Shown here one piece after another: positions 17,464-60,939 of a stretch of 64,000 nt of DNA. The notes under the pieces were generated by a model that worked only from the letters and a program-made list of their open reading frames with translations, made no database searches and was not told where the DNA came from. The stretch is taken from positions 22,950,256 to 23,014,255 of the forward strand of contig CM038910.1 of the NCBI GenBank assembly GCA_021904315.1. Reading direction: 5' to 3'. The number at the start of each line of letters is the position of its first letter. The stretch's first letter is position 1. The DNA is from Sphagnum magellanicum. Taxonomy: Eukaryota > Streptophyta > Sphagnopsida > Sphagnales > Sphagnaceae. Both the position numbers and the translations under genes were made by a program.

Positions 17464-17567
17464 TATAATAAGGATAAGCTCAGCAAGGAGCTGCAAGTAC
17501 ATGTAAAATCCTAAGTGATAGTTCATAACTGCAGGAAATCCAGGATGCGTCGAATGGTGCGAATTAG

Positions 17568-17945: not shown

Positions 17946-18040
17946 AATTTCAAGGAAAGGAAAAAAAGTCAGATTTTCAATCAAAATCAAATTGACAATG
18001 AAGGTGTGAAGGACTTGTTACGTTGAGGTGCGTAATCATA

Positions 18041-18047: not shown

Positions 18048-18190
18048 GATCGAAGAAAAGGAAAGAAAGGCGTGAGTAACAGCTTAGGACCATGGTAAAG
18101 TAAAACCGTAAGGTCAAAGGAAAAAATTGAAGGTGTAGGTAAAGGTGGTTGGGGGAAAATGGAAGAGGTGAAAAGGTGTTTTTCCTTCAC

Positions 18191-18420
18191 CTTCCATTGG
18201 CCACCAAGCTTGGGACCTTCCAATGGCCACAAAGCTTGGGACCTTCCAATGGCCACCAAGCTTGGAACATTCCAATGGCCACCAAACATGGAACCTTCCA
18301 TTGGCCACTAAGCTTGGAACATCCCATTGGCCACCAAGCTTGGAACATTCCATTGGCCATTAAGCTTGGAACATTCCATTGGCCACCAAGCATGGAACCT
18401 TCCATTGGCCACCAAGCTTT
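18191..18420. repeat. 26-bp minisatellite, nine copies
   Basis: The GGCC of each unit lies at 18199, 18225, 18251, 18277, 18303, 18329, 18355, 18381 and 18407, an exact 26-bp period. Each unit joins TTCCATTGGCCACC to AAGCTTGGAAC, so most units contain the palindromes TGGCCA and CCAAGCTTGG, with substitutions such as CAAACATGG in some. Because 26 is not a multiple of three, several frames on both strands stay open and give false 26-residue-periodic proteins. The array lies between a minus-strand TATA box at 18047 and a plus-strand TTTAAAAG at 18451. A regulatory role (LTR U3 enhancer or bidirectional promoter) is possible. Confidence 0.9.
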
Positions 18421-18956: not shown

Positions 18957-19612
18957 GGCCTACTGAGTACTCCTTAGGAGAGGGAGGGATCTTTTTAGGT
19001 GTAGGAATCCTCACTCTCCTATGCCTAGTGACCTATGTAAGCATAGGCCTTGATAATAGGCCTACTCCTTAAGAGAGGGAGGGATTTTTAGGTGTACAAA
19101 TCCTTGCTCTCCTAGCCTAGTGACCTATGTAAGCTTAGGCTTTGAGAATAGGCCTACTCCTTAAGAGAGGGAGGAATCTTTAGGTGTACACATCCTTGCT
19201 CTCCTATGCCTAGTGACCTATGTAAGCATAGGCCTTGAGAATAGGCCTACTCCTTATGAAAGGGAGGGATTTTTAGGTGTACAAATCCTTGTTATCTTAT
19301 GCCTAGTGACCTATGTAAGCTTAGGCTTTGAGAATAGGCCTACTCCTTAAGAGAGGGAGGGATCTTTAGGTGTACACATCCTTGCTCTCCTATGCCTAGT
19401 GACTTATGTAAGCTTAGGCTTTGAGAATAGGCCTACTCCTTAAGAGAGGGAGGGACCTTTAGGTGTACACATCCTTGCTCTCCTATGCCTAGTGACCTAT
19501 GTAAGCTTAGGCTTTGAGAATAGGCCTACTCCTTAAGAGAGGGAGGGACCTTTAGGTGTACACATCCTTGCTCTCCTATGCCTAGTGACCTATGTAAGCT
19601 TAGGTCCATAAT
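18957..19612. repeat. 93-bp tandem array inside the hAT-type element
   Basis: About seven copies. GGCCTACT marks unit starts at about 18957, 19059, 19151, 19244, 19337, 19430 and 19523, so the spacing is 92-93 bp after a slightly longer first unit. Each unit contains CTCCTTAAGAGAGGGAGG, TTTAGGTGTACA, GCTCTCCTATGCCTAGTGAC and TATGTAAGCTTAGGC. The units are highly similar to one another, which implies recent amplification. No coding capacity is seen. Confidence 0.9.
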
Positions 19613-24318: not shown

Positions 24319-27300
24319 ATGGTGTTTCCAAGGCCCACAGTGTCAGATGAAAAGCTCCAAGCACTCAAGGCAAAATTAAATGCGCGTAAGCATTATTTCC
24401 CAAACTTTTTGGTTTCAAGTTACCCACAAATTTTCAATTTTCCCCCATGCTTTTCATAATGCACCCAATTCCACTCCATTCAATATTTGTGTATGTCACA
24501 CTCTCATTCCACTCCATTCAAAAGTTTGTGCAAGTATTATGGAAAACCATTTACTAGTTTAACTTTCAGTCATCAAGATTTTAGACTTAGAAACCAACTC
24601 AAGAACACCTAATTTCAATCCATTCAAAAGGTTTCACAAGTAATTTGGAAACCCATTTGGTAGTTTAGCTTTTGGTCATCCAAATTCAAGACTTAGCAAG
24701 CAAGTAAAAACACCCAATTCGATTCCATTCAATTTTTGTGCATGTTACACACTCATTCCATCTTGTCAAAAGTTTGTGTACTTTGAAAATTCATTCCTAG
24801 TTTAGTTGTGAATCATGAATCAAGATTTAAAATTTGGCAACTAACCTAATCCCTTTTTCCTTCTTGTTCCACATTTTTTTTATCATAAACTTTGACAAAT
24901 TTTCACCATTCCATTGCTCCATTCAAAAGTTTGTGCATTTGTTCCATTGTCTCTTTAGTTATCAACAATTACAAGTACTTATTGAGAATTTAGGATGATT
25001 GTTGCTTTTTAGGTTTGTGTAGATTGGGGTAAGACTTATCATTACAATGCTTATAAAAGGGATTCAACAACATTTATTACATTATATTAACATTTGCAAT
25101 TCAATGATTTCATTCACATTTATCAATATCAACAATAGTGAAAAAAAATTTGCAAAGAAAAAGGTAGGAATCTTTTGATAGAGAAGGTTTTCTTGATATA
25201 TTTGCCTCAAATAATGAAGAGAAAAAAACATAGGTGCTATACATTAGAATAATTTTGCAAGCTTTGTAATTTATGATTGTTAATTTTGTAATGTAATCCA
25301 AATCTAAGAAAGGAAACCATATACAAATTAATGCAAGTTTCATCATGTTCATGGAATTGTATTTTATGAGATTAAAAATGTGAAAATTTTAACCCTAAAT
25401 CTCATTTCTTTTCACTCTTTTGTTCTAGTTTGTTCTAGCTTGTTGGAAGAGACTCTCTTTCTACATCATATAGGTTATATAAACTTTTTGATGTTTGTTA
25501 ACCTCTAAAATCTAGAGAAAGGTAGAAATACATTGAAAAGCGGACCAAATTGTCTACCCTGATGTTTAGGGGTTAATCCTCCTCCATCCCTTTGAGTACA
25601 TTCTAATCAATTTGAAATTTATTTGATGTACTTACAAATTCAGAATTTTATTTGACTTTGTAGTCACTAGATCTCCAGAGGAACTTGCAATTCAACAAGA
25701 AAAAATTGAAAAAGAAATCATTGAGGAGACTCTTATATATTCCTTGTTTGCTCAACATGCAAATCTCTTTGAGCTTATAAGTCAATACAAAAGGTTCTAC
25801 AACACACCAATTAGGTCCAACATGGTGAAAGCATGGTTATGGAACTCATATCAAGGCCCTCTTAATGAGGCAGACTTTCCAGAAGGAGAAGGCTATACAT
25901 ATTTAGGAATTGAAAACATTTATTATAATGGTAGCACCCTTTTCTTTGATTCCTCCCAAGACACTTTTGCTCTAGATAATCAGAAATCTAAAAATCAAGG
26001 TTTAAGATTTTTCAACCATTATGCCTCCACAACTTGCATTTCATTAAATTTTCAATGATCCAATTATTTTGCTAGACAACCTTGTTAATGATCTTGACTT
26101 TGTTTATAAGACAATATCTTATAATGTATAATCTATGAAATTTTGTACAGGATCCTTTAAAAAAGGGATGATGCATGGGAATGGGAAGTTGAGGTGGGGT
26201 CAAGGTATTGTCTATGAAGGCAATTTCATTTACAATTGCATTGCTGGTGAGGGCACATATGATTGGCCTGGAGGAGCCAAATATATTGGCAAGGTAATTA
26301 CAATGGAATTTGGACACATAACATACAATTACAAGGCGTGTATCACCTTCTTTTCTACTTTGTTGTAGACATCTTAAATTTTAATGCATTATTTTAGTAT
26401 GTATTTTGAAAATATTTGTTTCTAGTACCAATAGTATATAACAATCTTGACAAACTTACTTTTGTTGTCAACAATCTTAGTGAGAGCTACTCATGTCAAT
26501 AATATCCAACCAAGGAAGTCCGCCATCTATTGTGCATTTGTATTACCAATTTCCAATAAATTCTAGTGTTTATTACATTTCACAAGATTTGTGATTGTTG
26601 TACAAGTATGGATCAACAATATATGTATCAAAAGGATTTAAGTTCCCTCTTAATACATTTGAAATATTTTTCCATAAATGTGTACATGCAGCCCAACATT
26701 AGAACATATCAAATTTTTGTTCATTACTTTACTCACTCAGATTACCTTGGGTAGTTACTGATATGCAACGCCATTCCGTGATTTGGTGCCTATGCCTTCA
26801 TTCTAAAACAAAGGTGCAGGTGTTTGATGGGCTACCACATGGGGTTGGGGCAATGCAAAAAGGAAAACACATGCACACTTATGATGGTCTATGGGCTCAT
26901 GGTATTCGTCATGGTTTGGTATTGCCCATGTCTTTCTCTATTCCTCTCCAATACTGACATCAAATTATGCAATGCATACTTATCAATTTGGAATTCTTTG
27001 AAATCACGAACATCATAAAGTTTATGGAAAATAGATGATCTAGGCATATGTATAACTGTAGGCTTACATTTTAAAATTATATTCATAGATTGCAATGTTT
27101 CATAATTTCCAAAATGCATACCATGTTTTCCTAAACTAATGGCATAATAATATTATGAGAGCATTCCAACTTTCAGACCATTTTATTAATTTCAAATTTC
27201 AAATAATATATTATCCAAAAAATTGGGGTCCAAGCACCAAAAAAACTTTTAACATCAATATTTGTTTGGAAGTTTTTATTTCCAATTTTTTGTGGCAATT

Positions 27301-30300
27301 TGAATTAAATCTTGGTGAAATTAACATACCAGGGAACAATGGAGTATGGGAAAGGAAGGAATGTATGTTATGTGGGCGAATGGGAAGGGGACCGAAAGCA
27401 AGGGAAAGGACAATTCCTATTTCCATCTAGAAATACATATGAAGGAATGTGGTCAGAGGGAAAACCTCATGGACTAGGCACTCAAGTCCAATGTTTGTTT
27501 TGGGAGCCTGGTATCCCCCTTAATATTCTTGGGATCACTAATAAAGACCATCCCAATACAATTCTTGCAAATATCTATGAAGGTGATTGGAAAGAAGGTT
27601 TTCCAGAAGGCAGGTTCATATTCCAAATACCATATGATATATGTTCTTGTTTAGGACTTTTTCTTTTTTCATCATGAATTCACACAAAGTGGTAACATTG
27701 AAAACTTATCAATGATCATCCCTTACTAACTTAAAGTGACAATGATATTTGCATTTAACTATGTAGCATATTTATGTATGAAATCACGAGTAGAGGTTTT
27801 TGCACACATTTCACATGGATTAAACATCTCATTTGCTTGTATTTATGTGCAAGTATGAAAATAACATGCACATTTCAATTGGATGGGAAAAAATATTAAT
27901 GGGCATATGCATCATCGATATTGTTGAATCATTTTCTTTTGTGAACCTCTTGTGTGCTATAGTGGAAAGAGCTTGTGGACATGGCATGATAAAGAAGAAG
28001 AGGCTTTGTTACTACATAACATGTATGTTGGTGAGTATGCCAAGGGTCAACGATCGGGAAAAGGCACTTTCTACTATGCATCGGGTGCCATTTTTCAGGT
28101 TGATTGATTTCTGTAAATTTGATGTTGATTAGTGTCATTTTTTTCATTACCATTTTGATGAATTATGGTTTCCAAAATCCAAGGTTTGAAAAATGTGTTG
28201 GTCCAATGTCCAGAACTTGGAATCCACCTTCTTAAATTATTGACTCCCCCAACTTCAATTATAATGATTTGGAACCCATACATAGTAATTTTACACTAGA
28301 TGAATTATAAGAGATCCGTCTCTTATTGTAGGGCATGTGGAGAGGAAATGACAAAGAAGGACCTGGTGTGCTAACATATGAAAATGGAAAGGTGCATTAT
28401 GGGATTTTTTGTCGGGACCATTATGAGGCCATACGCAATGAAAGCATGATTGTTTTGGTTAAAGAGGTGAGAAACATTTGGCCTTCATCTTGACCCATAA
28501 AATAAAATCCTTGAATTTCCCAAATGTTAAGGGGTATGTGTTGGAAATCTGACCAATTAAATTTGGTACTTTTATATTTGGTGAAGTGGAACATTTAATC
28601 AATAAATTGAATTCAATCATTGTCTTAGACCAAATTCCAAGTGCAATATCCAAACCAGGGTGGAGTAATGCTAGTAGGTATATAGTTAAGTTGTATAAGG
28701 CCAATCAATTGAAATAATTGCATTTGCCCACCTTGTTTTCCATTAACTACCTATGCGGGGTTCCTAAATATTTACTTATTCTTGAGTTGAAAATTGGTAT
28801 CAACGATGTTCTTCTTGTGGATTCGTTTTTAAAGCAACTTGTTGAAGAACACATTGTTGTAATGTTGAAAGTGCATGTCAAGGAAACTTCTAGAACAAGT
28901 AACAAAAATTCAAGGATTTTGGAAATGAAGGCATTGGATAAGGTGGTTGATGAGGAGGAAGATCCACAAGCTACTAAAAAAGCTTTATCAGATGCATTAA
29001 TGAGATTCAATTCTGAGCTCAAGGATATATTTTTTACTTGGAGGTGAAAATTATTTTGCCATTGGGTGTAAGGGTCACTTGAAGTTCACCCTATTAATGA
29101 CAATAGTTGTCAAAATTTTGACATTGATTTAGTTGTAAGCATGTTTGCTTCTGTGCATTGCTTAACAAACTCATATTGGTTTAATATATTTGTCATCCTA
29201 CATGGAGAAAGACTTGTATCAATAATAGGAAGTTTGTTAAAGAAGTAAATTAATGGCATCATATCTACTAGACGTCTATATTAAAGAATGATAAAAATGG
29301 CACAATATAGTTTTCTTTGGGCTATAAATTATAAGGAGGTAAAGGGCAAAACATGTATTGTTCATTAATGTTTTAAATTGCACTTTTTGTTGGACTCAAT
29401 TACAACATATGCATGTGAACAAATAGCTAAGGCCAAAGCAAAAGCTATTAAACATCAAGCTATGAATTAGCTTTGTGTGAATAATAGACTAAAATTGACA
29501 TTCACAATGAGATGGCATTGTCCCTTTTTTGTGACAATATAATGTCATAGCCTTTCTTGGTGCAATACTGGTCTTATTGACTATCTAGTAATTTAAGGAT
29601 TATTTTTTGGGGAAGTCTGAACTTGAAGTTTTCAACAATGTGTCTTGCGAACTTTTTTTGTTTTGTATGTGTAGCATGATGGTAGAATCAAGGTCACTAT
29701 TTTCAAATCCTGTGGAAAACTACCTTGATGACACAAGTGACTATGGTACCATAACAAAAGGACATACAATGGGATTGAGTCTTCAAGGACTTCAAGAGGC
29801 ATTCAAAAATCGCAAGAAAATATTTGCAGCACGAGGAACATCTCCAAATTCAAAATTTGACGTTCAACATCAATCCCTCTCAAATGATTTGCATGTTGGC
29901 ATTGAATTAGGAAAGGATAATGAAAAAGAGATTTCCAAGGAATATCTTGGAACATTAGCCAAAAATTTGCCAATCAAAGAACTTGATGAAAATCTTTCAA
30001 AAGTTAAGAAAGTGGTAGATCAAGAGGTTCCAAGTGATGAAATTTCGCAACATGGAGATTTAAACAGTCCACTTCATTGGACAAAGGCATCACCATTTGA
30101 CACTTTAATATTGGAAGGCCAAGCTCGAGCAATGTCAGTGGAACAATTTTGGCGACTATGCTTTGATGCACATGTAAATTATTTAATGATTTCCCTTTCA
30201 AAATTGGTGTCACTCACAATCACAAGTCAAAGTTTACATTATGTACTAAAATAGGATCTTTGTTCATTGAATTCAATGCTGCCAAATATTTTATTAATTA

Positions 30301-33066
30301 GTAATGTCATGAGTTTCTTTCAGTGTTGAAGTTTCTTGTCTAGTGTATAAAGAACAAGACTTACAATTAATGCCAAAAGATTGTCATGTTTTATTATTTT
30401 GTAATTATGGAGGCTACTCATTTGAAAGCATCTTGTAAGGGAGACAACAATGTGCTATGACCATGAAGAATTTTTTCATTGTCTAAAATTTTATTAAAAA
30501 ATCATAACCAATTATATATAATTTACCCATAAATACCTTTTCTTTGGTCCTGTAAACGAACAAGATTTTGCATTCAACGATTTCAAAGGAGCCAATTTAA
30601 TACATTTTATTATATATATTGTTTCCATTATTTGCCTGATTTACTTTTTCAAAACTATTAAAAAAATCAAGGTTTTGTTTCCTAAATAAAGAAAACCTCA
30701 TAAGACTTTCCATGATGATATATTTGGAATTTTTTTTGCACATAGAAATCTATACTGTAATACCTTGGCCATTTCAACACATGTTTGTCAAATAATTAAT
30801 TAATTTTGAAATTTTCATTTCAACAAATGGAATATTCCTAAATATTCACTATTATCCTTCACAATATTTTTTGATTTGGAAGAAATAATTTTTGAAAATC
30901 TCAACATTTCTGAAAATAATATAATTAGTGTTGAATTGGCCAAGCTACTAAGGTATGTGCATCATTTTGAAATTGAAACCAAGGTCATTCACTCATCAAT
31001 TTGGCATTTTCTATAAACAATGTTTGTCATGATTATACAAAGTTTTTCCTGATCCCTAATGTTATGTTCATAAATGAGTAATCATAAGTTTCTTTGTCAT
31101 GGATATGGTATTATGATGGAATTGCAGATTCTAGAACCGGGTTTAGGATTGGCTCAAGTTGATATGATATTGAAGCCATCAGCAAATGCATGGGATGATG
31201 CATTTGATCTCTATTGTCCAGTTAAACAACCATTAAACATTGGTCCTTAACTTGTTTCATTTAAAATATCACAATATTGGGATGATTTAAAATGTAACAA
31301 AACTTTTATATTGTGTATTAATTTTATGACATACTTACATGCAATATATGCTCAATGTTAAAGATCTTAATATAGTAAAAGCTTGTTACCAAGCAACCAA
31401 ATTAAGATATTTGGAAGTTCTAATAAAGGAACTTGTATGTTTCTATGTCTAAAATGCATAATGGAAATCATATTTTCATTTTGAAAATTAAAAATATTGC
31501 AGTATCCACATAACAAATGGTTTGTGATATTTGTTTCGAAATATTGAAGTCATGTGAAAGACTATTTGAGAATTTCAAAAATAAAAAATAAAAGCATTTT
31601 TTCCCCCCCTCCCAATGCATGTAAGTGTATATGTATCATCTTTTAATGATTATTGTAAGGACTCATGCAGAGTCGACAATTAATTCAAAGGGAAGTTGAT
31701 GAAGCCTTTGTAAAGTTGGCTTTGTGCAAGTTTTATACAGATGAAATGACTATGCAAAAGAAAGTAAAAAAAAAAAACTTGTCACATTTTTTTGTTGCAT
31801 AGTTTGTTTTATGAAATTTGAAAATTAGGATTACCATTTGTAGCTTAAGCTTGGAATTGTGGAAATTCTTTTGTAGAACACATTTGATTACCCAAATTTG
31901 AACCAAAAAAGCTACATAAATTTGGTTTTGTCATCAATACACATGGCCCAAATCATAGTTATCTTAATCGACAATTCCAAACAATCTGGTTTGGGACAAT
32001 AAAATAGCATATCTAGAATCAATATAGAAGAAATATTGCATTAAATTAGAAACATTGAGTGAATGAAGCATTATTCAATATGTAGATGGCAATAATGGTG
32101 ATATAATTGTTGATATTTGTAGGTCATAAAAGTGTTGGAAGGTTGTGTTAAAGCCATTACAGCATGGTCACAAGAAGGGACAATGTACACAATCATCCAA
32201 TCATTTGAAATCCAAGGAGTATTTATTCAATCATCATCACATTTACAAAGGCTTTTTGGGGAATGCATGTTGGAGTCAAAATGTAGTAATTATTGCATTA
32301 AATTGCATTCTTTAATCAACTTTTATAAGGTATTATACATTCCTTCTTTTGGAGGAATCATGTTTTTGTTTAGTATATGTAGTTGTTTTCTTGCACTTTT
32401 TTATAGTAACCATAAGGGGTTTTGAAAATGAATTTATGATTTAAAAGGTGTACAATTTTTTTTAAATAACATTTGCACATGGTTTTTGTGAAATTCATGA
32501 TTTACATTTATGGCATTTATAGAAAATCAGACCTCAAATGGATGTTCCTCCAAATTCAATAACAACATCTACATTGCAAGCACTCTACCAATATCAACTC
32601 CAAGATAGAAATCCAAGTGTTTTTCTTGACATTGACATCAATTATAGAGAATTTGAAATCTCAATCCTTCAATTTGCCATCTTGGTATCAATTCTAATGC
32701 CTTCTTTATGACAAAATGTTTTGAGCCATAGAGCATACACATTTTACGATTACGATCCAATTTTTAACAATAATGAATGTACATAAATACGAAAAGGGAT
32801 TTGAATTTTCTTGATCAATCTCCAAAGAATTGTATTAAACCAACTAGTTCAATATTAAATGAATTTTTTTGTATTTAATTCAAACACTTAAAGGGCCTAA
32901 TAATAAATTAAAATTTGTTGGCTTGTTTAATAACAATTTTGTTAAATGCTAAAATATTCAACTTTTTATGCAGGAAGCCAAAACAAACAAAATGTTGTTG
33001 TCATCACAACCACATGAAGTTTTGAAGTTGTTTATTGACAAAGAAATTGTCAGAGAAACTAAATAA
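24319..33066 (+). CDS. RSPH10B: Radial spoke head 10 homolog B-like MORN-repeat protein
   Basis: Axonemal radial-spoke head protein of motile cilia; in plants it serves swimming sperm. Fourteen exons inferred: 24319-24385, 25664-25930, 26151-26293, 26820-26918, 27333-27613, 27963-28098, 28332-28466, 28787-29043, 29675-30173, 31128-31220, 31671-31763, 32123-32329, 32523-32684 and 32974-33066. Together they make 2532 nt (843 residues; human RSPH10B is about 870). Every junction is GT-AG and phase-consistent. About ten MORN repeats fill exons 2-7 (GMMHGNGKLRWGQGIVYEG; CYVGEWEGDRKQGKG; NTYEGMWSEGKPHGLG; NMYVGEYAKGQRSGKG; GMWRGNDKEGPGVLTYENG). The C-terminal half follows the family: KALSDALMRFNSELKDIF, EQFWRLCFDAH then LGLAQVDMIL, REVDEAFVKLALCKFY, and VFLDIDINYREFEISILQF. 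Exon 9 carries a poorly conserved, charged, probably disordered insert. The start at 24319 (MVFPRPTVSDEKL) is the first Met of exon 1; an additional upstream exon cannot be excluded. The gene lies tail-to-tail with the 1540-residue gene. Confidence 0.9.
24460..24960. repeat. Degenerate tandem repeat in RSPH10B intron 1
   Basis: Diverged copies of a roughly 110-150 bp unit recur. Each contains TTCCACTCCATTCAAAAGTT, a GTGCAAGTA-like stretch, ACTAGTTTAGCTTTTGGTCAT and AAGACTTAGCAA. Copies start near 24500, 24613, 24720 and 24757 (variant), and 24905. They lie wholly inside the 1278-bp first intron. Confidence 0.6.
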
Positions 33067-36000
33067 TTGTGATGGTATGAATTGAAGATGGTGATGACAA
33101 GATTAAATTTAAATGATTGTTATTTTATAACGATAGCATGGTTAGTTTAATTGAGTTATCATGACTAATATCCAAGGTCATTTTAATTGTGTAGTTATTT
33201 TTTACTTAGTCACATGAATTATTTCAATTTTCACTCGATAAATTGTTCAAACCAAGGTAAGGTTTTTTTTGCCTCTTCACTTTCATGTAATCAACATCAA
33301 TATAATTATGATCTATGATTGAAACATTTTTTACTATTGTATTTTTACTTAGATTTGATTTTCATATTATTCATTTTTGAACAATAAAAGACATGCATGA
33401 CATTTTATATACAATTTTTGAACATGAATTTGGTTTTATTTCTTCATCCATTTTTAAAATCATTGTAGAATATTCAACCTAACCATCTTGAACCATGAAC
33501 ATTGTTCAAAGAAATACAATATTTCATGATTTGATCATCAGATATTATTTTCTTTGGATTCATTTTCATGAAAGTTATGACATTCAGAATACTTGTACAC
33601 AATTAATGTGTCAAAATATTGATTCAATTTTGATCATCAAACTCATATGTTTTAATTGATTTTAGTTTTGTAACACATGATTGATTAATTGTAATGTGAA
33701 TCTTTCCATGTCACATATATAACATCTTTAAATTAATTTAAAATTATAAAAACCCATACCACTTGCTAAATTAAGGCTTAAAAATATATAGAAATTTATA
33801 ACAATTGAATCATTCAAACTACATTCATATTTGAGATAATTACATTGGAAAATCATTTATAAATCAAACTTGAGAATCTTTCCAACACAATATATTTGTC
33901 ACATCAACCAAATGTAATTGTGGAACAATTTAAAAATTTCATTGATGAGTATAGAAACATTGGATTCAAGTGTCCAAAGGACAAGTTTGGGAGGCCATTT
34001 GGTGAGTAATTTTACTATAAACAACCCAACCAAACAGGCCAGGGAAAAGATTTCAATTAAATGCATGTTTTTAAATAAGACGTTTTTAGACCCTTTTGAC
34101 ATATAGTTCTAAATTTAAATAAATATTAATTTCAAAGACAAAATGAACTTACAAAGTTCACAAGTTTAATCCTATATGTTTCCCAAAATTTTCAACATTT
34201 GTATTTTGTTTATGGACTTCATTGTAGTTTTCTTAATGTAAACTTCCCCAATGCTTTTGGCATGAAAATGATGTTTGTAATGATTCTAAAAGTTGGTATT
34301 TGATGTTCTTGAACTTTAATGTCCAACCTTCTATGTTCACAATTTTACTTGTTGAATACAAGGCACACAACTTACAATTCAAATTAAAGGACATTAGTTG
34401 CTTCAAACCTTTACACATCATGGACAAATTGTCGTGACAATCTTGATGTCAATTCATGATACCAAAATGTTTTGAACATTACTCATTATAATCGGGAAAA
34501 GGTGGGGCAAAAACAATTGTGTTAAATATGATGTAATTTTCTTTAAGACTATTGGGATCATGAAATATTATTTGAAGTATGGGAATCAAATGCAAAACAA
34601 AGTTTAAAGGAAACTAAGGTGACAAAATGAGTAGTTCATAAGGATTGAATAATCTCTTGACGATGAAAAAGAAGAAGATTTGTAAAATGTCTTAGCTTTG
34701 GATAGATCCAAGTTAGTCTTTGGTTATATCAAGAAAAGTTATGAAATCAATTCATGTTTTCAAGTTTCCTCAAGTAACAAAAGTATCATTGTTATTGAAA
34801 TTGCGACAAATATATTGATGATTTGTGTAGCCAAACAAGACAAAGGTACATCAAGCACCTTGGGATCATGATGAAGTGCACTACAATTGGGCAAATGTTC
34901 ACAAAGTTATATATATGATTAATACTGGTTGAAATTTTCCTCCTAGTTTGTTTCATTATTTAAATTTCTAATATTATCATTACTCAAACTACACATAAGA
35001 CTAAAATACACACTTCACATGAAAGTGATGATGTTTTTAAAGGTGAATTAGGTGAGTTCGACTGCATGATGGGCTCCATTTAAAATACTAGCTTACAAAG
35101 ATGTCCCAATGGGGACTCCTTCAATCCACTTGTAATAAAACCTCATTAATTTTTTTTGTGAACAAAAAATGTTTCCTTTCACTCTTACAAAAACTAGGTT
35201 TGATCATGTTTTAGAACATGGACGTTTTTAGTCTAACAAAAGTCAAACAATCTTCAAAAAATATTATTTGAGTTTCAAGATTTTTTTTGGATAACAATAA
35301 TTACATATTGCTCTTGGGTTAATTTGAATATGTTAAAATTAAATTTGTGCATTTAAAAATAAAAATTTCACAATTTTTTTCCAAAAAGAAAAATTCAAAA
35401 TCAAAAATTCAAAAATGAAATGATTTTAGAAGGTTTACATCATTAGATTGCTCGATTCCTATAGTTGATTTTCAATGTGTAGTAGGACAAATAAAAAGTT
35501 GATAAAAATTTGCGTATTTCATATTTGGTTTAATTAAATTTTGGCTAAATCTTCTTGTGGATAATCACCATTTTTTAACATCTTTTGTGGATGATGGCAA
35601 CTTAGACTACATTTTTAAAATATTTTTAAAAATGGTTCCCTTGGACATTTTCATTTATATATATCCACAATATGTTCTTTGGTTCCTATTGTGAATTTAA
35701 GTTGGGTAAATTGTCAAATTGTTAATCAATAAATTAATCACTTCATTGGACTTCTGCTTTTATTTTTTTAGAATCATATATATCTTGTGAATTTTATTTG
35801 CAAATCTCTTGGTTCAATGTCATAAGAGGTTGAATCAAGTTTAGATTGATAAGAAAACAACTTCAACATATAAGTCTTGGAATTAGGATTGAACCTTGGC
35901 ATTTGCTTACTTGTATATTTTATTTTGCTTCCTCAATGCTCACACAAAAACTTCTTACAACATAATCACATTAAAAATATTAAACATTGCAACAAAAAAC

Positions 36001-37308
36001 ATATCCCTTACCAAGCTTAGACCATAATGCTAGAACAACTTGTAGGAATGTACATAATAATGAACATCAATGTAATATCAAGTTGTTGAAAAATAAAAGG
36101 AATCTACTTTAGATTTAAAAATGTTATTTAATTTTGCACAGTAGCACCAATTATAGCCTTTTATGATATTAAAAAACTTTCCTTGCATTCTTCCATTACA
36201 TATTGATAGGCCTGAACATCTTGCTTTTTGAATGATTAATTTTAGACATTCATCTGTTAAGTAATGTTTAATTTGGTATTTAGGAAATGACAATCAAAGT
36301 TTGAACTACTTTATTCTTGGTTAGCCTATTTTTATTCTAATACATTGTAACATTTCTTAATAGACGTCTACTTCTCTTGTTTAGATGAAAAATTCAAAAA
36401 ATAAAATTTCATTACAATTATCATTAAAGTTTTGAAAATAACTCATTACTTACATTGAAATTGCCTTATAAATTTAATTTCAATTTCCATACATTGTTGA
36501 CAAATGATTTTAAAGCTTTCAATATGACCTATAGATATCCATGTCAAATTGACAATGTAAGATCAAAAAACATGTTCAAGGTCAACCAACAATACTTTGA
36601 GGTAGTGAACACCCTTACTTAATTTATGTTTACTAGAACATGTGAACAACCAAATTTTTTTTTTCATAATTATATGAGAACAATTTTGGCAAAATCTTTA
36701 TAAAGGTGAATTCCAAGGAATGTCAATTGCTGAACCAAAGTTAGATATGATTAGAGAATTTGATATTGAATCCATTCCATCAATTGGAATGACATCATGC
36801 AAAGGTTTAAGTGCATTGTTTTCCAATCCACTTGAACACATTAATGAAAGCCCAAAACCTTTTCAAGTGCACAACAAATTAAACATTCTTTTGTCAATTT
36901 TTCCATTATCTATTATTAATTACATATTTCCATTTGATCACTTTCCTCTAAAGCAAATGAAGTAAATTAGTCTAAACAAAATGTTACAAATCAAACCTAC
37001 ATTTCATTTTGATTAATCTTTTTAGTTTGTAATGTTGTTAATCTTACATAACTAGGTCTATTCTTGATCCTTTTCTAAATTCTATTCCACATTCTTGTCT
37101 TTTTTCAATCACAAAATAATTTCACTAATTAGCAATAAGAGGCTCCATGATCTATATCCTCACTTCCATTGTCAAGGTAATGAAATCTTCATGTTCTAGC
37201 AATGTTTCACTATTGCAAAAAGACCCATCTTTGTTGTTGTCAAACCAACAAACACCTTCATATCTTCATTGAGGAAGGTGGTCTTTCCGATGTCTAATAT
37301 ATTAGACT
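33067..37308. other. Intergenic DNA between convergent genes
   Basis: AT-rich DNA holding the 3' flanks of RSPH10B (+) and of the 1540-residue gene (-). One coding-like frame stands out at 36720-36965 (+): MSIAEPKLDMIREFDIESIP, then SCKGLSALFSNPLEH, with balanced codon use over about 55 residues before becoming A/T-biased. It has no recognised family and no clear splice partners, so it is not called as a gene. Confidence 0.4.
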
Positions 37309-40300
37309 TCACCTTTTCTCCTCTTTTAGATCTAAAGGTGTATAAAGGCATGTAGGAGGCCATGGAAGGCCAACAACTTTGTATGCCTTTTCCTTTGCTA
37401 TTTTCCTTGCTTGATGCACTTTACTAGTAATTAAACTATTGGGTTTAGTTCTAAAAATTTTCCAATTTCTTTTGAATTGTTCCCAAGTTTGATCTACTTC
37501 CCAAGGGCCTTCATATGTCTGCAATTGGGTCATATTTTCTAGATATGTGCTTGGATCCCTATGAATTGCATCCATCATAGATGGGACTTCATTTGCAATG
37601 GTTGATGAAACTTTCAAACTAAGGTCATTGGATGTTTCTTTCATTTCAATGGGCATTGTGGTTTCTACGAATATATCTCCAATCTTTCTTTCCATGGTTT
37701 CACCATTAGTACTAAAAATAATAGACTCCCTACAAATTGGCAATGTTTGCATGCCATCCTTTTGCATAAGGGTTGTGCCAATTTCAATTATTTGTTTTGG
37801 AGAATAACATACCTTTTCTTTGACCTCTTGCGTGGGGATCTCATCCAACATCATTGATTTGGATGTCTTTTCCAATGTAACTGGTTGTATCCCAGCTTCT
37901 TTTTCATCTTTTGTAATGTGCATTTGACGCTTCTCCACTTGTCCTATAATGTTCTCCATACTATTTTGAGTGGTTACTTTGAGTTGCTCAATGAGGGCCT
38001 CACCAAGTATTGTCTTTTGGCTTTTTTCTTCCAATGCATCTTTGGGTTCTTCCAATGCGGTGTTATCAAACATTGTTAATTGGAGTGTTTCTTCCATGAT
38101 TGGTTCCAACACAACCTCTTTCTCCTCTTCTATGCTAAGCATTTTAGAAATTTCAAGATTGACTTCCTCGTTAACATCTTGGATGGGGCCTTCATGAATT
38201 GCTATGGATTGAGGTCCCTTTGTCAAGATTGGTTCAACCTCAAACTCTTTTTCATCTTCATCAATGGGGTTTTGATGTTCATTTGATTTGAGAAGAATAT
38301 GTTCCTTGGTCCCATGAATATTGGACACTTTGAACTCAAAAACATCGTCAAACACAACTGTAGATTGGGGCTCCTCCAATGGTAGCTTAAGTGCAACCTT
38401 GTTCTTTTCTCGCTCCTCATCATGAATCATTGATCCAGGTTCATCAATGTCTGCTCCATCAAGAGCTATTAACTGTAGTGCCATTTGCAAGGTAGGTTCA
38501 CATTCATCCATTTTGTCAACTGATTCTTTCATCAATCCAGTCTTCAAAATAGGTTCAACTTCAACATGATTCCCCTCTTGAACACAAGGAATTGTAGTAG
38601 CTGCAAGAACCACCTCCATATCAAACTTCTTGATTTGTGGTGCTTGTTTCAAGCTTGACTCAATCCCAATGTCTTCTTCTGGAACTTCATCTCCAACGCC
38701 CAATTTAAACATGTCCAATTTTGAAACATCCTCCTTCATCTCCATGGACAACATCCCTTTAGGACATTTGGTAGGAGTTTCACCAAGCATATTGGATTGA
38801 AGTGCTCCAACATCCAACATCAAGTCATCCCCAACTTGTTTTTCTTGCTTTACAATGGTCATTTGAGCTTCCGCTACCTTTTGAACATCATCTTTGGATA
38901 AAATTCCAAAAGGGTGAAGGTTTGTTGGATCTAGTTTGGGGATCATTTTTGCATGTTCACTAAAAGCTTTATCAAGCTTTGTGGATTGAAGTCCTTCTAA
39001 GCATGGTTCCACTTGAAAATGTTTGCCCTCTTTAACAAGATGATGAACTCCAACCAATCTCATAGACACATTCCCCTCTTTTACAACACCTAATTGAATT
39101 TCCTCCTCATTAGGCAATTCCCTAGCAAGAACTTCCTTTGGTTTCTCAATGGAGACATCTACAAGGATATTGGATTGAGGTGTCACTTGCAACTTTGGTT
39201 CATACACAACATCTTTTTCTTTGTTAATTATGGGCACTTGAGCTTTTTCTAACTTTGGAAGATGCATCCCCTCAGTTTCAAGAGTGAAGGGTTCCACATG
39301 CTCATTTAGAGCCTTTTCCAACTTTGTGGACCAAGGTTCTTTTTCCATTGCAAGCTCAACCTCAACATGTCTTTCTTCTTTCAAAAGAGGAAATTTGATA
39401 GCTTTAAGAACCACCTTCTTTTCCAACTCCTCAATTGAGACCTCATGAAACTTCAAGGATTGTGGTTGCTCCTCAACACTTGATTTTGCCACAACATCAG
39501 TCTCCTCATCTCCAATGTACAATTGAAGTTCTTTTAATTTCAAAATGGTCCCTTGGCTAGAAACTAGAATGGGCGCTTCTCCAATCTCCTCAATTGGAGC
39601 CTGTTCAAGCATAGTGTGTTGATTTGCCTCATGCACCATCAATGGATCATCCTCAAGTGGATCACTAAGAGCATCATAAAACTCCATGGAAAGAGGATGC
39701 TCTTCTGGTGGCACAACTTCCATGTGCTTTTCTTTTTCAGTAAGAGGAATTTCAAAAGCCTCTTGAACCACCTTTTTCACAAGGTCTACAATTGGGGGCT
39801 CATGGGGCTTTACTGATTTTATTTTTTCCTTTGAACTTGGCTTGATCTCCACACATCTCTCTCCTTCTAAAATGTTGAATTGAGGCTCTTGTTGAAGAAC
39901 ATTTTTAATCTTCAAAGCACCCACCTCCTCTAACTTTTCAATTGGAGCCCCTTCAAGCATGATGAATCCAGATGCCTCCTTTAATGTTGGTGCATCCCCA
40001 AGCTTTTTCACTTCTTTTAGAGCACACACTTGTGTGTCTTCTGACTTTGGAACACCTTCTTCCCTAGTTTCACAAATGGAAACTTTGGGCTCATCATTTG
40101 GAGCTTCATCAAGTTCCATGGATTGAGGATCCTCTTGCAAGGCTGACTTAGCCCCAACTTCAGTTCCTCCTCCAACAATAGTAATTAATTGAAGCTCTTT
40201 TACCACTTCAACACCCTCCTTATCTGTATGAGGAGTGGGGACTTTGGACAAAACCTTGTTGGGAACTTCATGAAGCAACTGAAAATGTTGGGACTTTTCC

Positions 40301-43300
40301 AATGAAGGTTTGGAGGCAATTTTTTCCTCTTTCACAAGTTGGTCCTTGGCACTTAGGTCATGCAAGGTTGCATCGAACCCGCCCCCAAACTCTTCAAGCT
40401 CCAATGCCTTGAATGTTTTTTGAGAATTTATGACCATTAATTCTTGTTTTGATTTTTCAACTTCCAACACCTAATACACAATGCAATACGATAGATCTTC
40501 ATAAGTATTTGTAGTCCATAGTATTTGTCAAGAAATGGGATGGAAATCAAAAGGACCAAATTTATGAATATTCATTTCATAAAATCAACTTTGAATGCAA
40601 TGAGGAAAATTAATGCAAAACATATGAAATCATTAGATGAAAAGAAAATTTTGACATAATGGTTCATTAGCCATGAAACATTCCCAAAATTGAATGACAT
40701 AGGCAAATCTCTTGATGAATGCAAATCTATATTGATAATAAAAATATGTACATTGCATTCATATGCATGAACTATTACCTTGCTTTCCACTTGTGGTAGT
40801 GATGGTGGTAATGATCGATCGTTTTGTATGAGGACCGCATCCTTTGACAACATATTGGACCCAATCAACTTAGGCAACTCCTTGATTTTTGTCGCTCCCA
40901 ACAAAACATCGCCCCCAACATGTCCAATGATGGAATGCACATCAACTTCATTAATTTGGTCCTTTCTTGACAACCTCACCATGTGATCTTCTTCAAAAGG
41001 TTTATCACTTAGTAATTGTTTTGAACTTGATTCCATCATAGGAAGACCTTCCATTACAGGCTGATCCATAAGCAATGCCTTGTTGCTCATTTCCACCAAA
41101 TATAATGGCTCTTCTTGTTCATTTGTTGACAATTGAAGTTTTGCCTCCTTTTCTTCCTCATGGAACTTTGAATCCTTCAAATTGTTTGTCACCATTGAAA
41201 CATTTTTCTCTCCTACAAGATATTCATGCAAACATATATTCCATGTTAGATGAAATAATGATGTAGCACATGTTGTCAACACAAAAAATTCACATATAAA
41301 GTTCCTTAAAAAAACCAAAATGAATGCATTTTCTATAATTCCATTTACAATTAATGGATATTATGGTAATCTCAAATGAATAATTAAGGATCACTTGGCA
41401 TACATGGACATTACACTCAAGAAGACATCAATTTTCACAAAAGGTTATGAATGTTGAAAAAATATGCCACGAGTTTTTTCAATTCTTTAAAAGATAATAA
41501 AAACTCATCAAAACCTTGGTCATATTTGTTGTTAAACCAAGGTGGCACAAGAAAAAAAATTAGATTCAATAGTTTATAATTAACAAATTAATAATCCAAC
41601 TTTTTAAACAGATAGTAGTTTGAACTCCATGATATTTGAAAACATTTAATTTACATAAGTGCTCAAAGTGGATATAGCTAAATAAATCCCCTCATGTTAA
41701 TTGGAGGCTAAAACAACAATAACATGACAAACAAAAGCACATGTTCATCTAATGTATTGTCAAGGAAGAAAAATCATTTTCACAATGAATATAATGTTGA
41801 TATTCTTACCAGTTCTTATTGCACCAAATTCCGCATGTGGGTCCAGTCTAGCATTTGTCTTGGCTTTGGTTGTCATGGGCATTGTCACTAGCATTGGTGA
41901 AATGCTTCCATGTCCAAGTTGTTGTGGCATAAGATCCCAACTGTCATTCAACCTACCGCGAAAGTACTTTGACACCAATAATGCTTGTGGGTCCACAGCT
42001 TCTTTCAATTCCACCTTATGACCTTGTGGTGTTGCAGCTTCTATGACATCATTGTTTTCACTTGGTCCTTGTGGTAGTGGAGCTTGCATTAGCCTTGGAC
42101 TTGTTTGTGAATTTGTAGAAATGGGGAGCAACCTCTTTTCACCACTTGCACCAACAATTGGAATTTGTGTGGTACTTGTGGTTGAAATGTTTTTTGATTC
42201 AAAAGGAAAGGAAGGGGATAGTTTTTTTTTCTTTCGAAGTCCAGGACGCATTGTTGTTGAACTATTATCATAACCTGGGATGATAGATTCCTTGGTGGGA
42301 AACAAGTCATTATCATCTTGTAAACTAGGTGATTTGGAATCAAAAGATGATTGGGATGGGGAACCAATTTCACCTACTTGTTGATGAGGCATGCTAGCAC
42401 TAAATTTCAAGTGTTTTGGATGGCTTGTTGAAAGTTGGACATGTTGTAATTCATCAGGGGAACTAGAACTTTTTGCACTCACACCTGAGAAGGTATGGAC
42501 TCGGCTTAACATTGATGTGTTATGTGCACTTTGCAAGATGGAAGCCGATGGTCCCAATAGACCAGATTTTGACACATTTGATTGTGGCTCTTGTTGATCA
42601 AACATGACATTTGTATCTATTGTTTCATCGTCTTCCAATTGAACTTGAGAAGATTTCATTTTCTGCAACATCATCCCCCACCAAAAATTAATCACACAAC
42701 CTTTTACATTATACTATTAAAGATTGTTTATATTCATAACAAATATTTTGATTTAAACATAAAATCCATGTAAAAATTGATAAACATAAAATAATATAAC
42801 AACTTATCCAAAAGACTAACACAAACAAATAAATGAATTCAAATGTTGTTACAAAAGGCCAAACATGTAAAATTTATATTTAAAGTGACAAATAATTTAT
42901 AATGGGGTGCAAACAAGATAACACAAGCCACACTTGGTTGTTTTACAATGTCTTTTGTGATTGTTTTTTGGGAAATATTCTTAGAATATTTTTGGAATAT
43001 TTTTGAAATCTTCAAAAAAATCTTTTTAAAAAATTAAATTATTTTTCATACTATGTTAAAATTTTGGCAAAAATATGTCATTTTCAAAAAGTTTCAAATC
43101 CAGTTACAAGTCCTTTTATTGCTTAAAACAAACGTTATAATGTTTAATGAATGTTTTTGTTAATTTTTTAGTCATTGGATTAATTTCAAATTAATTATCA
43201 TGTTCTCATGATGTGTTAAAAATACAACTATATAAACAAATCTTACAATTTCAACATCAAATTAAATTATGACTTTAAAATGTAAAAAAACCAAGCAAGC

Positions 43301-43851
43301 ATTACATTTACTATGGTACATGTTATTGTGACTACACCCAATGGTCTTAAGAAACTCTAATATTTTCCAAATTAAACCCAATACTTACAATGGTCACCAA
43401 TAATCATTGATGAAGTTCGTTACAAACAAATAAGTTATTAGGGATCTTGCTATAAGCCATCTATAGAACCTAATGGAAGATAGAAAAATTAGATCATTTC
43501 CCCTTTCCCTTGCCACCTTCCTCCTCTTTCATGATACCATTGAATTTCAAAAAAAGGATGGTGGAGCAAAACAAAAACCAAACACCCAATAGTGATCAAT
43601 CCTTAAAACCCATTTTTCTATTAGTAATAAATAAGGCAACTCATGAACCTTATTTGTGAGTAGAAAACAACACATACCTTGGGAGTGAAAGGCACAAAAG
43701 TGCCAGAATCCGTGTCTACAACTCGATCTAAGTCCTTGGCCTTGGTGCTAGGTTGATGGTGAGCATGATGAGTCTTAGACTTGGGTGTCATGGACTCTAT
43801 TGAACTCCCGCAACTCTCCTTGCTTGAACATTTTCCACCTCCCTTGCCCAT
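37309..43851 (-). CDS. Large acidic repeat protein (1540 aa), unknown function
   Basis: Not recognised. Four exons on the minus strand: 43851-43678, 42662-41810, 41212-40779 and 40470-37309. They sum to 4623 nt with matching phases and GT-AG introns of 1015, 597 and 308 bp. The start is well supported: ATCACCATGGGC context, product beginning MGKGGGKCSSKES. Exons 1-2 (about 340 residues) are Ser/Pro-rich and presumably disordered, with a basic cluster RPGLRKKKKLSPS that could be a nuclear signal. Exons 3-4 are dominated by degenerate units of about 40-60 residues with the consensus EKEVEVEPxLEEPQS then LDEAPIEEPKEV; at least fourteen are recognisable, very rich in Glu, Lys, Pro and Val. The last 65 residues differ: Trp-rich and basic (WEQFKRNWKIFRTKPNS; KVVGLPWPPTCLY), probably a small folded domain. 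The long uninterrupted frame in AT-rich DNA indicates selection. A scaffold or filament-like role is conceivable but unproven. Confidence 0.8.
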
Positions 43852-46359
43852 GGTGATGATTCCTGCGCTACACCCTCCTTTTTAGAACCCTAGCTTTAGG
43901 TGTAAAATTTTCTAATTATACACAAAATTATTCCCAAGTTTGGCAATTATGAAAAATTGAATCCTATTAATTCTCTAATGTGTACACAAACTTTGTATTG
44001 TAAATACCTTGACCATACCCACAATATTATTTTTTAATGCCATTCAATGCACTTGGCTATTCACTTGAAATTGTTGTTCTTTAAATGAGAGTAATTGATT
44101 GTAATATTCATAGAGGTATGATAATTTAGGATGATTCTAACATTAAAGTAACAAATTATATCATTTTCTTGACCACAATATATGACAAAGTCTTTCATTG
44201 ATGAATATTGATCATACACACACAATAATGACCAAAATGTGTAACTTATTGAATATGAATTATTTAAAAAATTGTTGAATGTGCCACCCTAGACCTTAAT
44301 ATCATGGAATGGCCTTGCCCTACCCCTTATGTTGAATGTCTCACCTAGTTCACCCTAATGGGTTCACCTAGCACCATACTCAACATAATAGGTTAGGCTT
44401 GACCATTCCATAGTACATTAATAGACGATTCAAAAATGTAATCAACCAAATTTACCCAACCTTGTAATTAATGGATGGCAAAACATAAGGAAACACATTA
44501 TGCAGAAAAGTGTTTCTATCAATCTTTAAGATTTGCAACATAATTTCAACACAAGATTGCATCTACCGACAAGGATGAAAGATCAGTCTAATACTAGTAA
44601 CATATATCTTAGCTTGCATGACCTTGATTTTGAATTTGACATCATAAAAAACTAATAGAATTTTTTTAGCACATGTGGAGGGTACCTTACCTTCACATAA
44701 AACATTTTTGAAAAAAATGTCTTCGCATTTATAATGAGCTTAATCCCATAAACTTGCCATGGTGTGGGTTCACAAAGCATAGGAATGGGTTAATGTCCTT
44801 TTTTTTTTCAAAAGGGTTTATGCAGGGTAAGTGACCCCATCATAGGTTCAACCACTTGTTCACAATTGTTCACAAGGGCTCAAACCTATGAAGCCCCTTA
44901 GGTGGTGCCTTACACTAATTTTTTTTGCCTCAAGAGAGAGGGTGACACCATCTTTTGAGGAATCTTACAAATAAGGTGCCTCCTCTCCTCTCAAACAAAA
45001 TCACATCATAGTTGTCAATTTTACAAGCAAAATTCTATAGGTTCTTTTCATTGGGTGATGCCAACAAAGGGGCAATTCTGGGAATTCGGGTCCCGTGTTT
45101 GGCTCCCACCTTGCACCACACACTCATTACCAGAAGGGCCCCATTCTCAGTCCTGACTCCTTACTTTACACTGTAAGGACTCACCAATCCCATAGTAATG
45201 CACAGCACCAATTTGAACAAACTGAAGCACCTTATCAACTTGGTCAATCTGTTCTTAACGTGTGGAAACGAAGTAACTTGGTTTCTGACAGACTCTAACG
45301 TTGCTCCAAGATGAGTGAGAGGGAGGGAAAAAAAGTACCCAACAATCGGATTCGCTGTAGTTATTTAGATCCTACACAAATAGCAGCTAGCGGAGGTTGC
45401 TTGCAGCAGCCTGTACACAAGGACAAAACATTATCAATGTGCACTTGGAAAGTGCATCTGAGCAGATCAACTCTCGACAAACCTGTAAAAGAGAAAAGCC
45501 CTGTATATAAATTAAAAAGGCAAGGATGGGAAGTTGGAACCCATCCACGACAAGTACCAGGCAAATAAAAGCTCGAGAACACAAGTCCAAAAATAACATA
45601 ATAATCAGAACACCACAAATACCCAAAACTAAATTGTCGTCGACTGCCACAAATCAGTAAGAAATGCAAATCGTGTAAGATCTAATTTTGTGTAGGGATT
45701 ATACCTTAAAACACACTGGATTCAACCGATCCACCAAATTGTCGGAACTAGGCCAACAACACGAACAAGACTTGGACTATAGCGGATATGGTTTCTTGAC
45801 AACTTGTTTTTGAAATCTCCGAGTGAACCGGAATTGAACTTAGAGCGAATATGATTTCTTCAGGATCCGCTGTTGGACAATTCTATGAAGAAGCTGCAAG
45901 CAAAGCAAAGAAAACCGTGAGACGGAAGAGACGCATGAATTACATGTTTGTTTGATGATCATGCAATGAACTGATCTCAATTTGCAATTGTCTGTTCTGA
46001 TATTTTTCTGTTGCAGAAGTGATTAACGTACATGTAAATGGATTATGAGCCGCGTCGCGAGGATCCCCGAAAGCTGATGTTAATCGCAACTCGCATTGAA
46101 AAATAGAGCTAGCCAGCTCGCTCGCCAACCTAAATCGGGAACAGAGTGAGGAGTCCGACGCGGACGGCGGTGATGTGTGTCCAAGGTTTAAGAACCCCAA
46201 TGCCCAAAATTGACAAACAAATACTCTGAGCTTGAGAAGGAACAACACCCACTACTTGCTCGTCTTGGCACAGATGATGGCTTCTAGATCTGACACTGGG
46301 AACGATGATGATAAGAAGAATGAATCCCAAAATTTACTTGCAGCAAGTGCATGAGGCAA
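43852..46359. other. Intergenic, 5' flank of the 1540-residue gene
   Basis: The first part is the presumed promoter of the minus-strand gene; a CTAGGGTTCTAAA telo-box-like motif lies just before its start codon. From about 45060 to 46270 the base composition becomes markedly richer in G+C. Overlapping open frames appear on both strands (45311-45568 +, 45361-45669 -, 45940-46248 -), but no product is recognised and the frames compete. It could be a gene's 5' region or an old repeat. Confidence 0.4.
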
Positions 46360-46868
46360 CGATGTCTAGAACCACGAGAAAGGAGCACTAGTATGCACAG
46401 CAGCCAAACAGAGAATGGAACAAGCGCAACATAGACATGCAGCAACACAAAATGCCTAGCACCACGAGAAAAGGAGCACTAGTATGCACAGCAGCCAAAC
46501 AGAGAATGGAACAAGCGCAACATAGACATGCAGCAACACAAAATGCCTAGCACCACGAGAAAAGGAGCACTAGTATGCACAGCAGCCGGACAGAGATTGG
46601 AACAAGAGCAACACAAAATGCCTAGCACCACGAGAAAAGGAGCACTAGTATGCACAGCAGCCGGACAGAGATTGGAACAAGAGCAACACAAAATGCCTAG
46701 CACCACGAGAAAAGGAGCACTAGTATGCACAGCAGCCGGACAGAGAGTGGAACAAGAGCAACACAAAATGCCTAGCACCACGAGAAAAGGAGCACTAGTA
46801 TGCACAGCAGCCAAACAGAGAATGGAACAAGCGCAACACAGACATGCAGCAACACAAAATGCCTAGCA
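46360..46868. repeat. Tandem array of 91-bp and 75-bp units
   Basis: CACTAGTATGCACAGCAGCC recurs at 46386, 46477, 46568, 46643, 46718 and 46793. Spacing is 91, 91, 75, 75 and 75 bp. The longer units differ by a 16-bp block (ATAGACATGCAGCAAC) that is also present at the right end of the array. The 75-bp units are a multiple of three, so both strands stay open here: plus-strand HKMPSTTRKGALVCTAAGQ repeats and a hydrophobic minus-strand counterpart. I regard these as by-products of the repeat. Confidence 0.9.
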
Positions 46869-60485: not shown

Positions 60486-60939
60486 CCAAAATTTCAGATT
60501 GATCCAAGGTCATATGTGAATGGTGTATCTTTGCAAAAATTTTGTGATGGAAGTTTGTTTTGAGAAGACATCAAAACAATTTTTTGAAGTGGAGCAAATA
60601 CAACTCGGGAGAACTTGAAGGAAGGAGTTTGAAGATTGGGAAGCACAAATACATTATCAGGACCTTCATATAAAAGTGTGGTATGTAATCATGTACTTAA
60701 TACCATACGAAATATTATACAAGATACGTACATATACGTAAAACCTATGTATAGTATACAATTTCGTATAATACTCAAGACATACATACATATGCAAGGT
60801 TCATCTTGTTCAACCTTAACCCTAACCCTAATCCTATAAACCTAAGGAAGGAAAACCCTAATCCTAATCCTAGAAACCCAAGGAAAGAATTAAAATCATT
60901 TGTGAAACCCCAAGAAGACATTGAATATCGCCTTAAAAG
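60486..60939. other. Junction between gypsy and copia elements
   Basis: No gene. It contains ATACGTACATATACGT-type alternating sequence (60720-60740). It also contains a short telomere-like tract, CCTTAACCCTAACCCTAATCCT at 60814-60835, with further AACCCTAATCC motifs to about 60870. It is probably the leader or 5' LTR of the copia element that begins at 60940. Confidence 0.5.

Follow-up and report, generated by a model that had tools for sequence, protein, structure and literature searches.

The window, a 64,000-nucleotide stretch of Sphagnum magellanicum DNA (contig 4:22950256-23014255), contains a four-exon gene on its minus strand (43851-37309) with an open coding sequence of 4623 nucleotides that encodes 1540 residues. 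This gene has a giant paralog on contig 17, and the two predicted proteins share conserved ends around unlike middles. We favor, with a probability of about 0.4, the interpretation that the window gene is functional and encodes a rapidly evolving moss protein that serves as a tether or spacer, its conserved attachment ends flanking a freely evolving acidic middle. The first-pass annotation described an unfamiliar repeat protein, and the gene is indeed both real and unfamiliar, but that description was incomplete in that it missed the paralog. The paralog changes the story because the alignment shows the two genes to be most dissimilar in the repeat body, while the ends are retained. The interest lies in the giant sibling more than in the repeats of the window gene.

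The sequence confirms the window gene as real at these coordinates because exon 4 stays open for 1053 codons, whereas no more than 144 codons are open in any of 300 mononucleotide shuffles of that exon. The four exons, consistent splicing, 1540 residues and open 3162-nucleotide last exon reported earlier are all borne out by the coding sequence and these shuffles. The introns are of the GT-AG type, with lengths of 1015, 597 and 308 nucleotides, and the start context is ATCATCACCATGGGC.

The paralog was found in a genome of 438,994,042 bases in 31 contigs, with the best candidates of each search being scored, such that a more distant copy could escape. The last 103 residues of the window protein match one other place (contig 17:16007116-16007409, 49% identity, E 3.1e-22), and queries with exon 1, exon 2 and the C-terminus of the paralog lead to the same two loci. 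At the paralog locus (contig 17:15970540-16005423), a single frame is open for 11,628 codons. Three elements of the paralog model are our own choices, namely the acceptor of exon 3 (a second one would also be in frame), the small exon 4 and the final acceptor, and the open frame does not hinge on them. The predicted product comprises 12,447 residues (1,391,045 Da, pI 4.15, 19.8% Glu, 10.8% Pro). Its giant exon (contig 17:15970571-16005409, 34.8 kb) encodes 86 tandem copies, the last one partial, of a 135-residue Glu/Pro-rich unit, termed R2 and delineated with an iterated hidden Markov model (HMM). R2 units alternate in two types: neighboring units (lag 1, 48 pairs) have an identity of 0.52, and units two apart (lag 2, 47 pairs) an identity of 0.80. 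Only units of exactly 135 residues, 61 of the 86, entered the lag comparisons, and the other 25 were dropped. The pooled ratio of nonsynonymous to synonymous divergence (dN/dS) at lag 1 is 0.46 in the coding frame, compared with 0.65 and 1.42 when that strand is read in its other two frames. The corresponding values are 0.60 against 0.79 and 1.06 at lag 10, and the contrast is weak at lag 2 (0.70 against 0.81 and 0.96). All 48 genome matches listed for two neighboring R2 units lie inside the giant exon. Provided that it is translated, the paralog would be one of the largest proteins predicted from land plants. The portion of PMC6681478 considered here names, as notable giants of land plants, proteins of 12,581 aa from Helianthus annuus and 11,880 aa from Pyrus bretschneideri, along with seed-plant proteins annotated as titin of up to 806 kDa; the species surveyed include S. 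fallax, and that portion holds no Sphagnum entry among its giant proteins.

The two genes have exons 1 and 2, the beginning of exon 3, a small number of copies of a shorter repeat (R1) and the C-terminal segment in common. Their first intron and the donor site of their second lie at matching places, and both introns agree in phase. We estimated dN/dS between the window gene and the paralog in five shared regions by the Nei-Gojobori method, using our own script with bootstrap ranges. The ratio is lowest in the C-terminal segment (52 codons, 65% identity, dN/dS 0.23, 95% range 0.09-0.48, 283 of 300 bootstraps defined) and in exon 1 (58 codons, 62% identity, 0.31, 0.15-0.61), whose initial 8 residues are identical. 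It is 0.35 in the last exon (362 codons, 35% identity, 0.21-0.52, 286 of 300 defined, dS 1.76), 0.50 at the start of exon 3 (96 codons, 43% identity, 0.23-0.90, 298 of 300 defined) and 0.58 in exon 2 (277 codons, 52% identity, 0.42-0.82). Relaxed codon substitution, a concern of the first-pass annotation, is not seen in these regions (dN/dS 0.23-0.58) against the one relative found. Constraint at the shared ends is mild in some regions and clear in others. Exon 2 retains the short motifs IDTNVMFDQQE, PDELQH, SQSSFDS, LFPxKExIIP and W-[DE]-L-x-P; it is the Ser/Pro-rich region described earlier, but the lysine run reported within it is not conserved in the paralog. Alignments of intron 1, intron 2 and the 500 nucleotides downstream stay at shuffle level (their scores are reached by 148, 16 and 24 of 200 shuffles, respectively), and the 800 nucleotides upstream align weakly (local score 34, shuffle maximum 30, reached by 0 of 200). 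Judged by these alignments, the introns have drifted while the exons still align.

The C-terminal segment, earlier described as basic and Trp-rich, retains both properties on closer analysis and in both genes: its 48 residues include 3 Trp at a pI of 10.5 in the window protein, and the 48-residue counterpart in the paralog has 3 Trp and a pI of 10.4. Both conform to the pattern VDQTWEQ..NWK.F...IT.KV.QA...AKEKA.KVVGLPWPP, in which Trp and Phe are spaced i, i+3, i+7 and i+10 and are followed by a second, predicted basic helix. The best hydrophobic moment of the segment ranks in the top 1% within each of the two proteins, and the helix call is based on this moment alone. Such a segment would suit binding to a membrane or an acidic surface. 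A genome-wide query with the segment lists four matches at E up to 10, two of which are the window gene and the paralog. The remaining two were rejected as third members of the family, since both look unrelated: one on contig 19 (E 2.85) falls within an ORF of acidic repeats that has an S1-like start, and one on contig 10 (E 5.41) lies in a Ser/Gln-rich ORF. The contig 19 ORF (contig 19:13731948-13732202 and surroundings) is long, at least 1081 aa, and it may encode a plastid EF-Ts/S1 polyprotein whose acidic repeat region has expanded.

Between the shared ends, the window protein possesses ~900 residues with 17 R1 repeats, whereas the paralog possesses ~11,400 residues with 86 R2 repeats. The R1 model of 43 columns was seeded with 16 units marked by eye on a PQS-like anchor and finds 17 units in the window protein (residues 588-1381), in line with the at least 14 degenerate acidic repeats claimed earlier. 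In a held-out test, a model of units 1-8 scores 36.4 bits on residues 1016-1400 (reached by 0 of 500 shuffles, best 7.7) and a model of units 9-16 scores 62.6 bits on residues 561-1000 (0 of 500, best 10.3), the test being not fully blind in that one motif guided the choice of every seed. On window exons 2-3, used as a negative region, the R1 model scores 2.0 bits, which 39 of 500 shuffles reach. Ungapped autocorrelation detects the repeats only weakly, with z about 3 at lags of 43 and 95 residues, because the spacing of units varies from 21 to 81 aa. The R1 model also detects repeats in the last exon of the paralog (34.4 bits, 0 of 500 shuffles), with 2 copies, or 3 after iteration, and the R1 consensus was derived after iteration including these 3 copies.

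The two middles show no detectable relationship. The R1 model scores below most shuffles on the first 2.6k of the giant array (450 of 500 reach its score), and the R2 model stays at shuffle level on the window protein, both in the exon 4 body (282 of 300) and in exon 3 (237 of 300). Because R2 does not rise above shuffles in window exons 3-4 and its listed matches occur at the paralog only, the R2 array has, by these searches, no place in defining the two-gene family. A single repeat underlying both arrays was considered, as EVEPxLEExPQS and EVEPSFEEVPRSLELP are alike by eye, and was set aside as unproven; the profile comparison gives E 0.12, and 2 of 20 column-permuted controls are as good or better. 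Since R1 and R2 are not shown to be related and R2 is undetected in window exons 3-4, each gene has its own middle between common ends. The window body has a pI of 4.71 and a net charge per residue of -0.09, and the giant array has a pI of 4.11, a net charge per residue of -0.20, 11% Pro and a charge-hydropathy distance of -0.215, on the disordered side. The C-terminal segment is followed by 14 residues in the window protein and by 74 in the giant. The giant's tail may be a gain in the giant, because the DNA past the window stop codon contains no significant relic of it (61 of 300 shuffles are as good).

The dS of 0.58-1.0 between the two genes (exon 1, exon 2, exon 3 start and C-terminal segment) is of the order of an older published whole-genome-duplication peak (0.643), although the methods differ. 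The portion of PMC9946827 considered here places chromosomes 4, 10, 11 and 15 in one group and 16, 17 and 19 in another. The window also carries, at 199-495 on the plus strand, an exon of a starch synthase catalytic domain (Pfam E 5.5e-17), with one other match in the genome, on contig 11 at 86% identity. An origin of the pair by in-place whole-genome duplication was rejected on these grounds, as the starch-synthase match lies in the group of chromosome 4 and the giant, on contig 17, in the other group. The pair more likely represents a dispersed than an in-place duplicate, a reading that draws on one gene and assumes that contig numbers equal chromosome numbers. A LYR-type ORF near the giant lacks a second genome match and is uninformative on the mode of duplication.

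Table 1. Features of the window gene (window coordinates) and exons of its paralog (contig 17 coordinates)
Feature	Position	Strand	Description
Upstream stretch (5' untranslated region or promoter)	43874..44030	-	Weakly alignable to the upstream region of the paralog
Exon 1	43678..43851	-	58 aa, MGKGGGKC start, basic (pI 9.1); open, GT donor, phase 0
Exon 2	41810..42662	-	284 aa, Ser/Pro-rich, short conserved motifs
GLRKKKKL cluster in exon 2	42219..42242	-	Paralog alignment has GLRKRA at this site
Exon 3	40779..41212	-	145 aa; initial ~100 aa common with the start of the giant exon of the paralog
Exon 4	37309..40470	-	3162 nt, 1053 aa plus stop TGA, open frame
R1 array	37789..40170	-	17 degenerate ~43-aa acidic repeats, consensus EEEKKVEVEPLLEEAPQSTMLDEALIEEPKE; HMM with held-out test
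C-terminal basic segment VDQTWEQFKRNWKIFRTKPNSLITSKVHQARKIAKEKAYKVVGLPWPP	37354..37497	-	48 aa, 3 Trp, pI 10.5; two possible amphipathic helices
Paralog exons	15967982-15968164, 15968995-15969859, 15970571-16005409, 16005764-16005817, 16006196-16007598		Placed by homology and splice consensus

In the tether interpretation, the N-terminus MGKGGGKC and the motifs of the Ser/Pro-rich exon 2 would bind at one end, and the basic, probably amphipathic helical C-terminal segment would bind an acidic surface, whether membrane, microtubule or protein. The acidic middle would serve as a flexible, self-repelling spacer whose length and charge may be selected more than its sequence, and the two paralogs would represent one link built at a short and at a very great length. 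As a guess, MGKGGGKC could be lipid-modified at Gly-2 or Cys-8. A bolder proposal, which we put forward tentatively and consider somewhat unlikely, is that mosses possess both a titin-class flexible tether (1.4 MDa, 86 repeats, mostly encoded by one 34.8-kb exon) and a short counterpart with the same pair of ends, which would bridge one pair of binding sites at two very different distances within one organism. Several points weigh against the tether interpretation. Its roles are proposed from sequence alone, and within the putative lipidation signal, Lys-3 is tolerated in some myristoylated proteins and Gly-6 is not the preferred residue. The dN/dS of exon 2 (0.58, 0.42-0.82) denotes mild constraint only, that of the last exon rests on a dS of 1.76, near saturation, and a single gene pair yields one averaged dN/dS, from which the constrained copy cannot be told. 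The window body lies at the boundary of the charge-hydropathy plot (distance +0.016), not on the disordered side, and the R1 copies detected in the paralog before iteration number 2 only. The window protein, with 1540 residues and the ends of the giant, is small enough to tag, express and delete, and comparing the short and giant proteins would directly test whether linker length is a selected property.

The first-pass annotation recognized no protein family, and database comparison agrees, with nothing above cut-off in Pfam and nothing convincing in PDB. The Pfam scan covered all four window exons, both C-termini, exon 2 and the last exon of the paralog and 2499 of the ~11,600 aa of its giant exon, and returned no family above cut-off in any of them. 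The third domain of ANKLE2 at the C-terminus (E 0.044) and DUF5792 (E 0.084) and DUF4858 (E 0.19), both in exon 3, fell below their cut-offs and were rejected. The PDB comparison covered exon 4 and the C-terminal pair, leaving out exons 1-3 and the giant array. It gave no match for exon 4 at E up to 1 and seven matches for the C-terminal pair profile at E up to 10, of which the best, a designed helical repeat (E 0.0094), is unconvincing and the next is mitoribosomal bS6m (E 0.016 and 0.084). The NWKxFKG motif is presumably a short look-alike of CsbD-type proteins, and Pfam did not list CsbD. None of 87 pattern-matching stretches in viral contigs encodes a relative. One of 371 pattern-selected bacterial stretches, from what we take to be a DUF2947-like protein, matches query residues 26-86 at 30% identity, with an E of 3e-6 that is relative to the candidates only. 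By eye, this match contains little beyond the W..FKRNWKNF patch used for selection, and it was treated as chance. Among the papers listed by open-access full-text searches, none describes such a protein in its title or abstract start, and the words "moss" and "Sphagnum" are absent from PMC11573180.

A neighboring gene raises the question of a role in sperm. On the plus strand, a MORN-repeat gene (window 25627-36965, MORN Pfam E 8.2e-12) is apparently arranged tail to tail with the window gene, and what may be the neighbor's final exon, an ORF at 36678-36965, stops some 350 bp short of the window gene. By its motifs, we assume that the neighbor could be an RSPH10B-like radial spoke protein, and its PDB relatives include MORN1, FAP207 and radial spoke head proteins. 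These relatives, and the flagellated sperm of mosses described in the part of PMC5424408 considered here, favor a protein that acts in the flagellar or microtubule-band apparatus of sperm cells and would be co-expressed with the MORN gene. We nevertheless regard such a role as quite unlikely, as it finds no support beyond the MORN neighbor itself. Exon 4 lacks a PDB match, and the best match of the C-terminal pair to an axonemal entry, so called from the RSP1 chain of that entry, reaches only E 1.9. The window ORFs of the neighbor (at least 30 aa) have no tblastn match at E 1e-4 in the 97 kb around the paralog (contig 17:15945001-16042400, ~23 kb upstream and ~35 kb downstream), and a genome-wide search with its exon at 29592-30251 found no second match. 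The tail-to-tail placement, which the first-pass annotation had allowed might be coincidence, does look coincidental given the lack of a MORN match near the paralog; its description of the neighbor as axonemal is not established by MORN repeats alone, which occur outside cilia as well.

The remaining explanations concern what is selected and whether the genes are intact. A bulk charge or hydration role, as a protectant resembling late embryogenesis abundant (LEA) proteins, an ion or metal buffer or a nuclear acidic protein, would make composition the function and the ends minor. This seems improbable to us: the body is acidic and of low complexity (the giant array has a pI of 4.1) and diverges more than the ends between the genes, as such a role would allow, but LEA, dehydrin and other Pfam families did not exceed cut-off, and the strongest conservation falls in the C-terminal segment rather than the body. 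We likewise give little credence to the idea that the window gene is a copy of the giant that is decaying or dispensable, open by chance or recently relaxed. The short stretch after its C-terminal segment (14 residues against 74), small gaps in the DNA alignment beside its stop codon and the exon 2 dN/dS of 0.58 are compatible with decay. Against it stand an old divergence (dS 0.58-1.0) after which 1540 codons remain open with GT-AG introns, and the DNA past the stop, which is not significantly similar to the giant's tail. Far less probable still is an artefact of annotation or assembly, notably a giant array that is an assembly expansion or is not translated. PacBio continuous long reads (CLR) underlie the published 439 Mb S. 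divinum assembly, according to the portion of PMC9946827 considered here, and long arrays can be miscounted; R2 units of the same type are also alike (lag-2 identity 0.80), with a weak frame contrast (0.70 against 0.81 and 0.96). However, one frame is open for 11,628 codons, adjacent units differ at about half their residues (lag-1 identity 0.52), the lag-1 dN/dS of 0.46 in the coding frame contrasts with 0.65 and 1.42 in the others (61 of 86 units), and the 48 listed R2 matches are confined to one exon.

Other elements occur in the window. The stretch at 16990-18017 has a copy at contig 17:16035576-16036485 and probably belongs to a mobile or repetitive element and not to a gene, because the similarity extends over several frames of both strands. 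Tandem arrays are present at 18189-18419 (26 bp, 9 copies), at 18968-19604 (93 bp, 7 copies) and at 46362-46840, where 91/75-bp repeats (95-97% matches) leave 127-aa frames open on both strands. Retroelement-like ORFs span 59852-63454, which we take to be RNase H-like and gag-pre-integrase-like, and several stretches resembling 62101-63451 occur near the contig 17 locus.

Several known systems resemble parts of this family. The giant plant proteins of PMC6681478 are in the size class of the paralog, and the portion of that survey considered here mentions no two-length family, unlike the pair described above. LEA proteins and dehydrins are likewise hydrophilic, repetitive and found in plants, and the helix ITxKVxQAxxxAKEKAxKV superficially resembles the LEA 11-mer. 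They differ from the family here, which has an acidic, Pro-rich body and dissimilar conserved ends, and no LEA or dehydrin Pfam signature appeared at E up to 1, or up to E 10 in exon 1 and both C-termini. To our knowledge, no giant plant protein with an elastic or spacer role and a tested function has been described. Neurofilament side arms and the projection domains of microtubule-associated proteins also join an acidic, repetitive brush to a binding segment, but Pfam gave no match here to a rod or tubulin-binding domain. The PEVK segment of titin and other giant flexible linkers differ from the paralog in several respects: no sequence similarity was found, the Ig, FN3 and kinase domains of titin do not occur in the Pfam-scanned parts, and the paralog has a strongly negative net charge with little Lys. 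What the two have in common is a very long, Pro/Glu-rich and probably extended chain with conserved ends.

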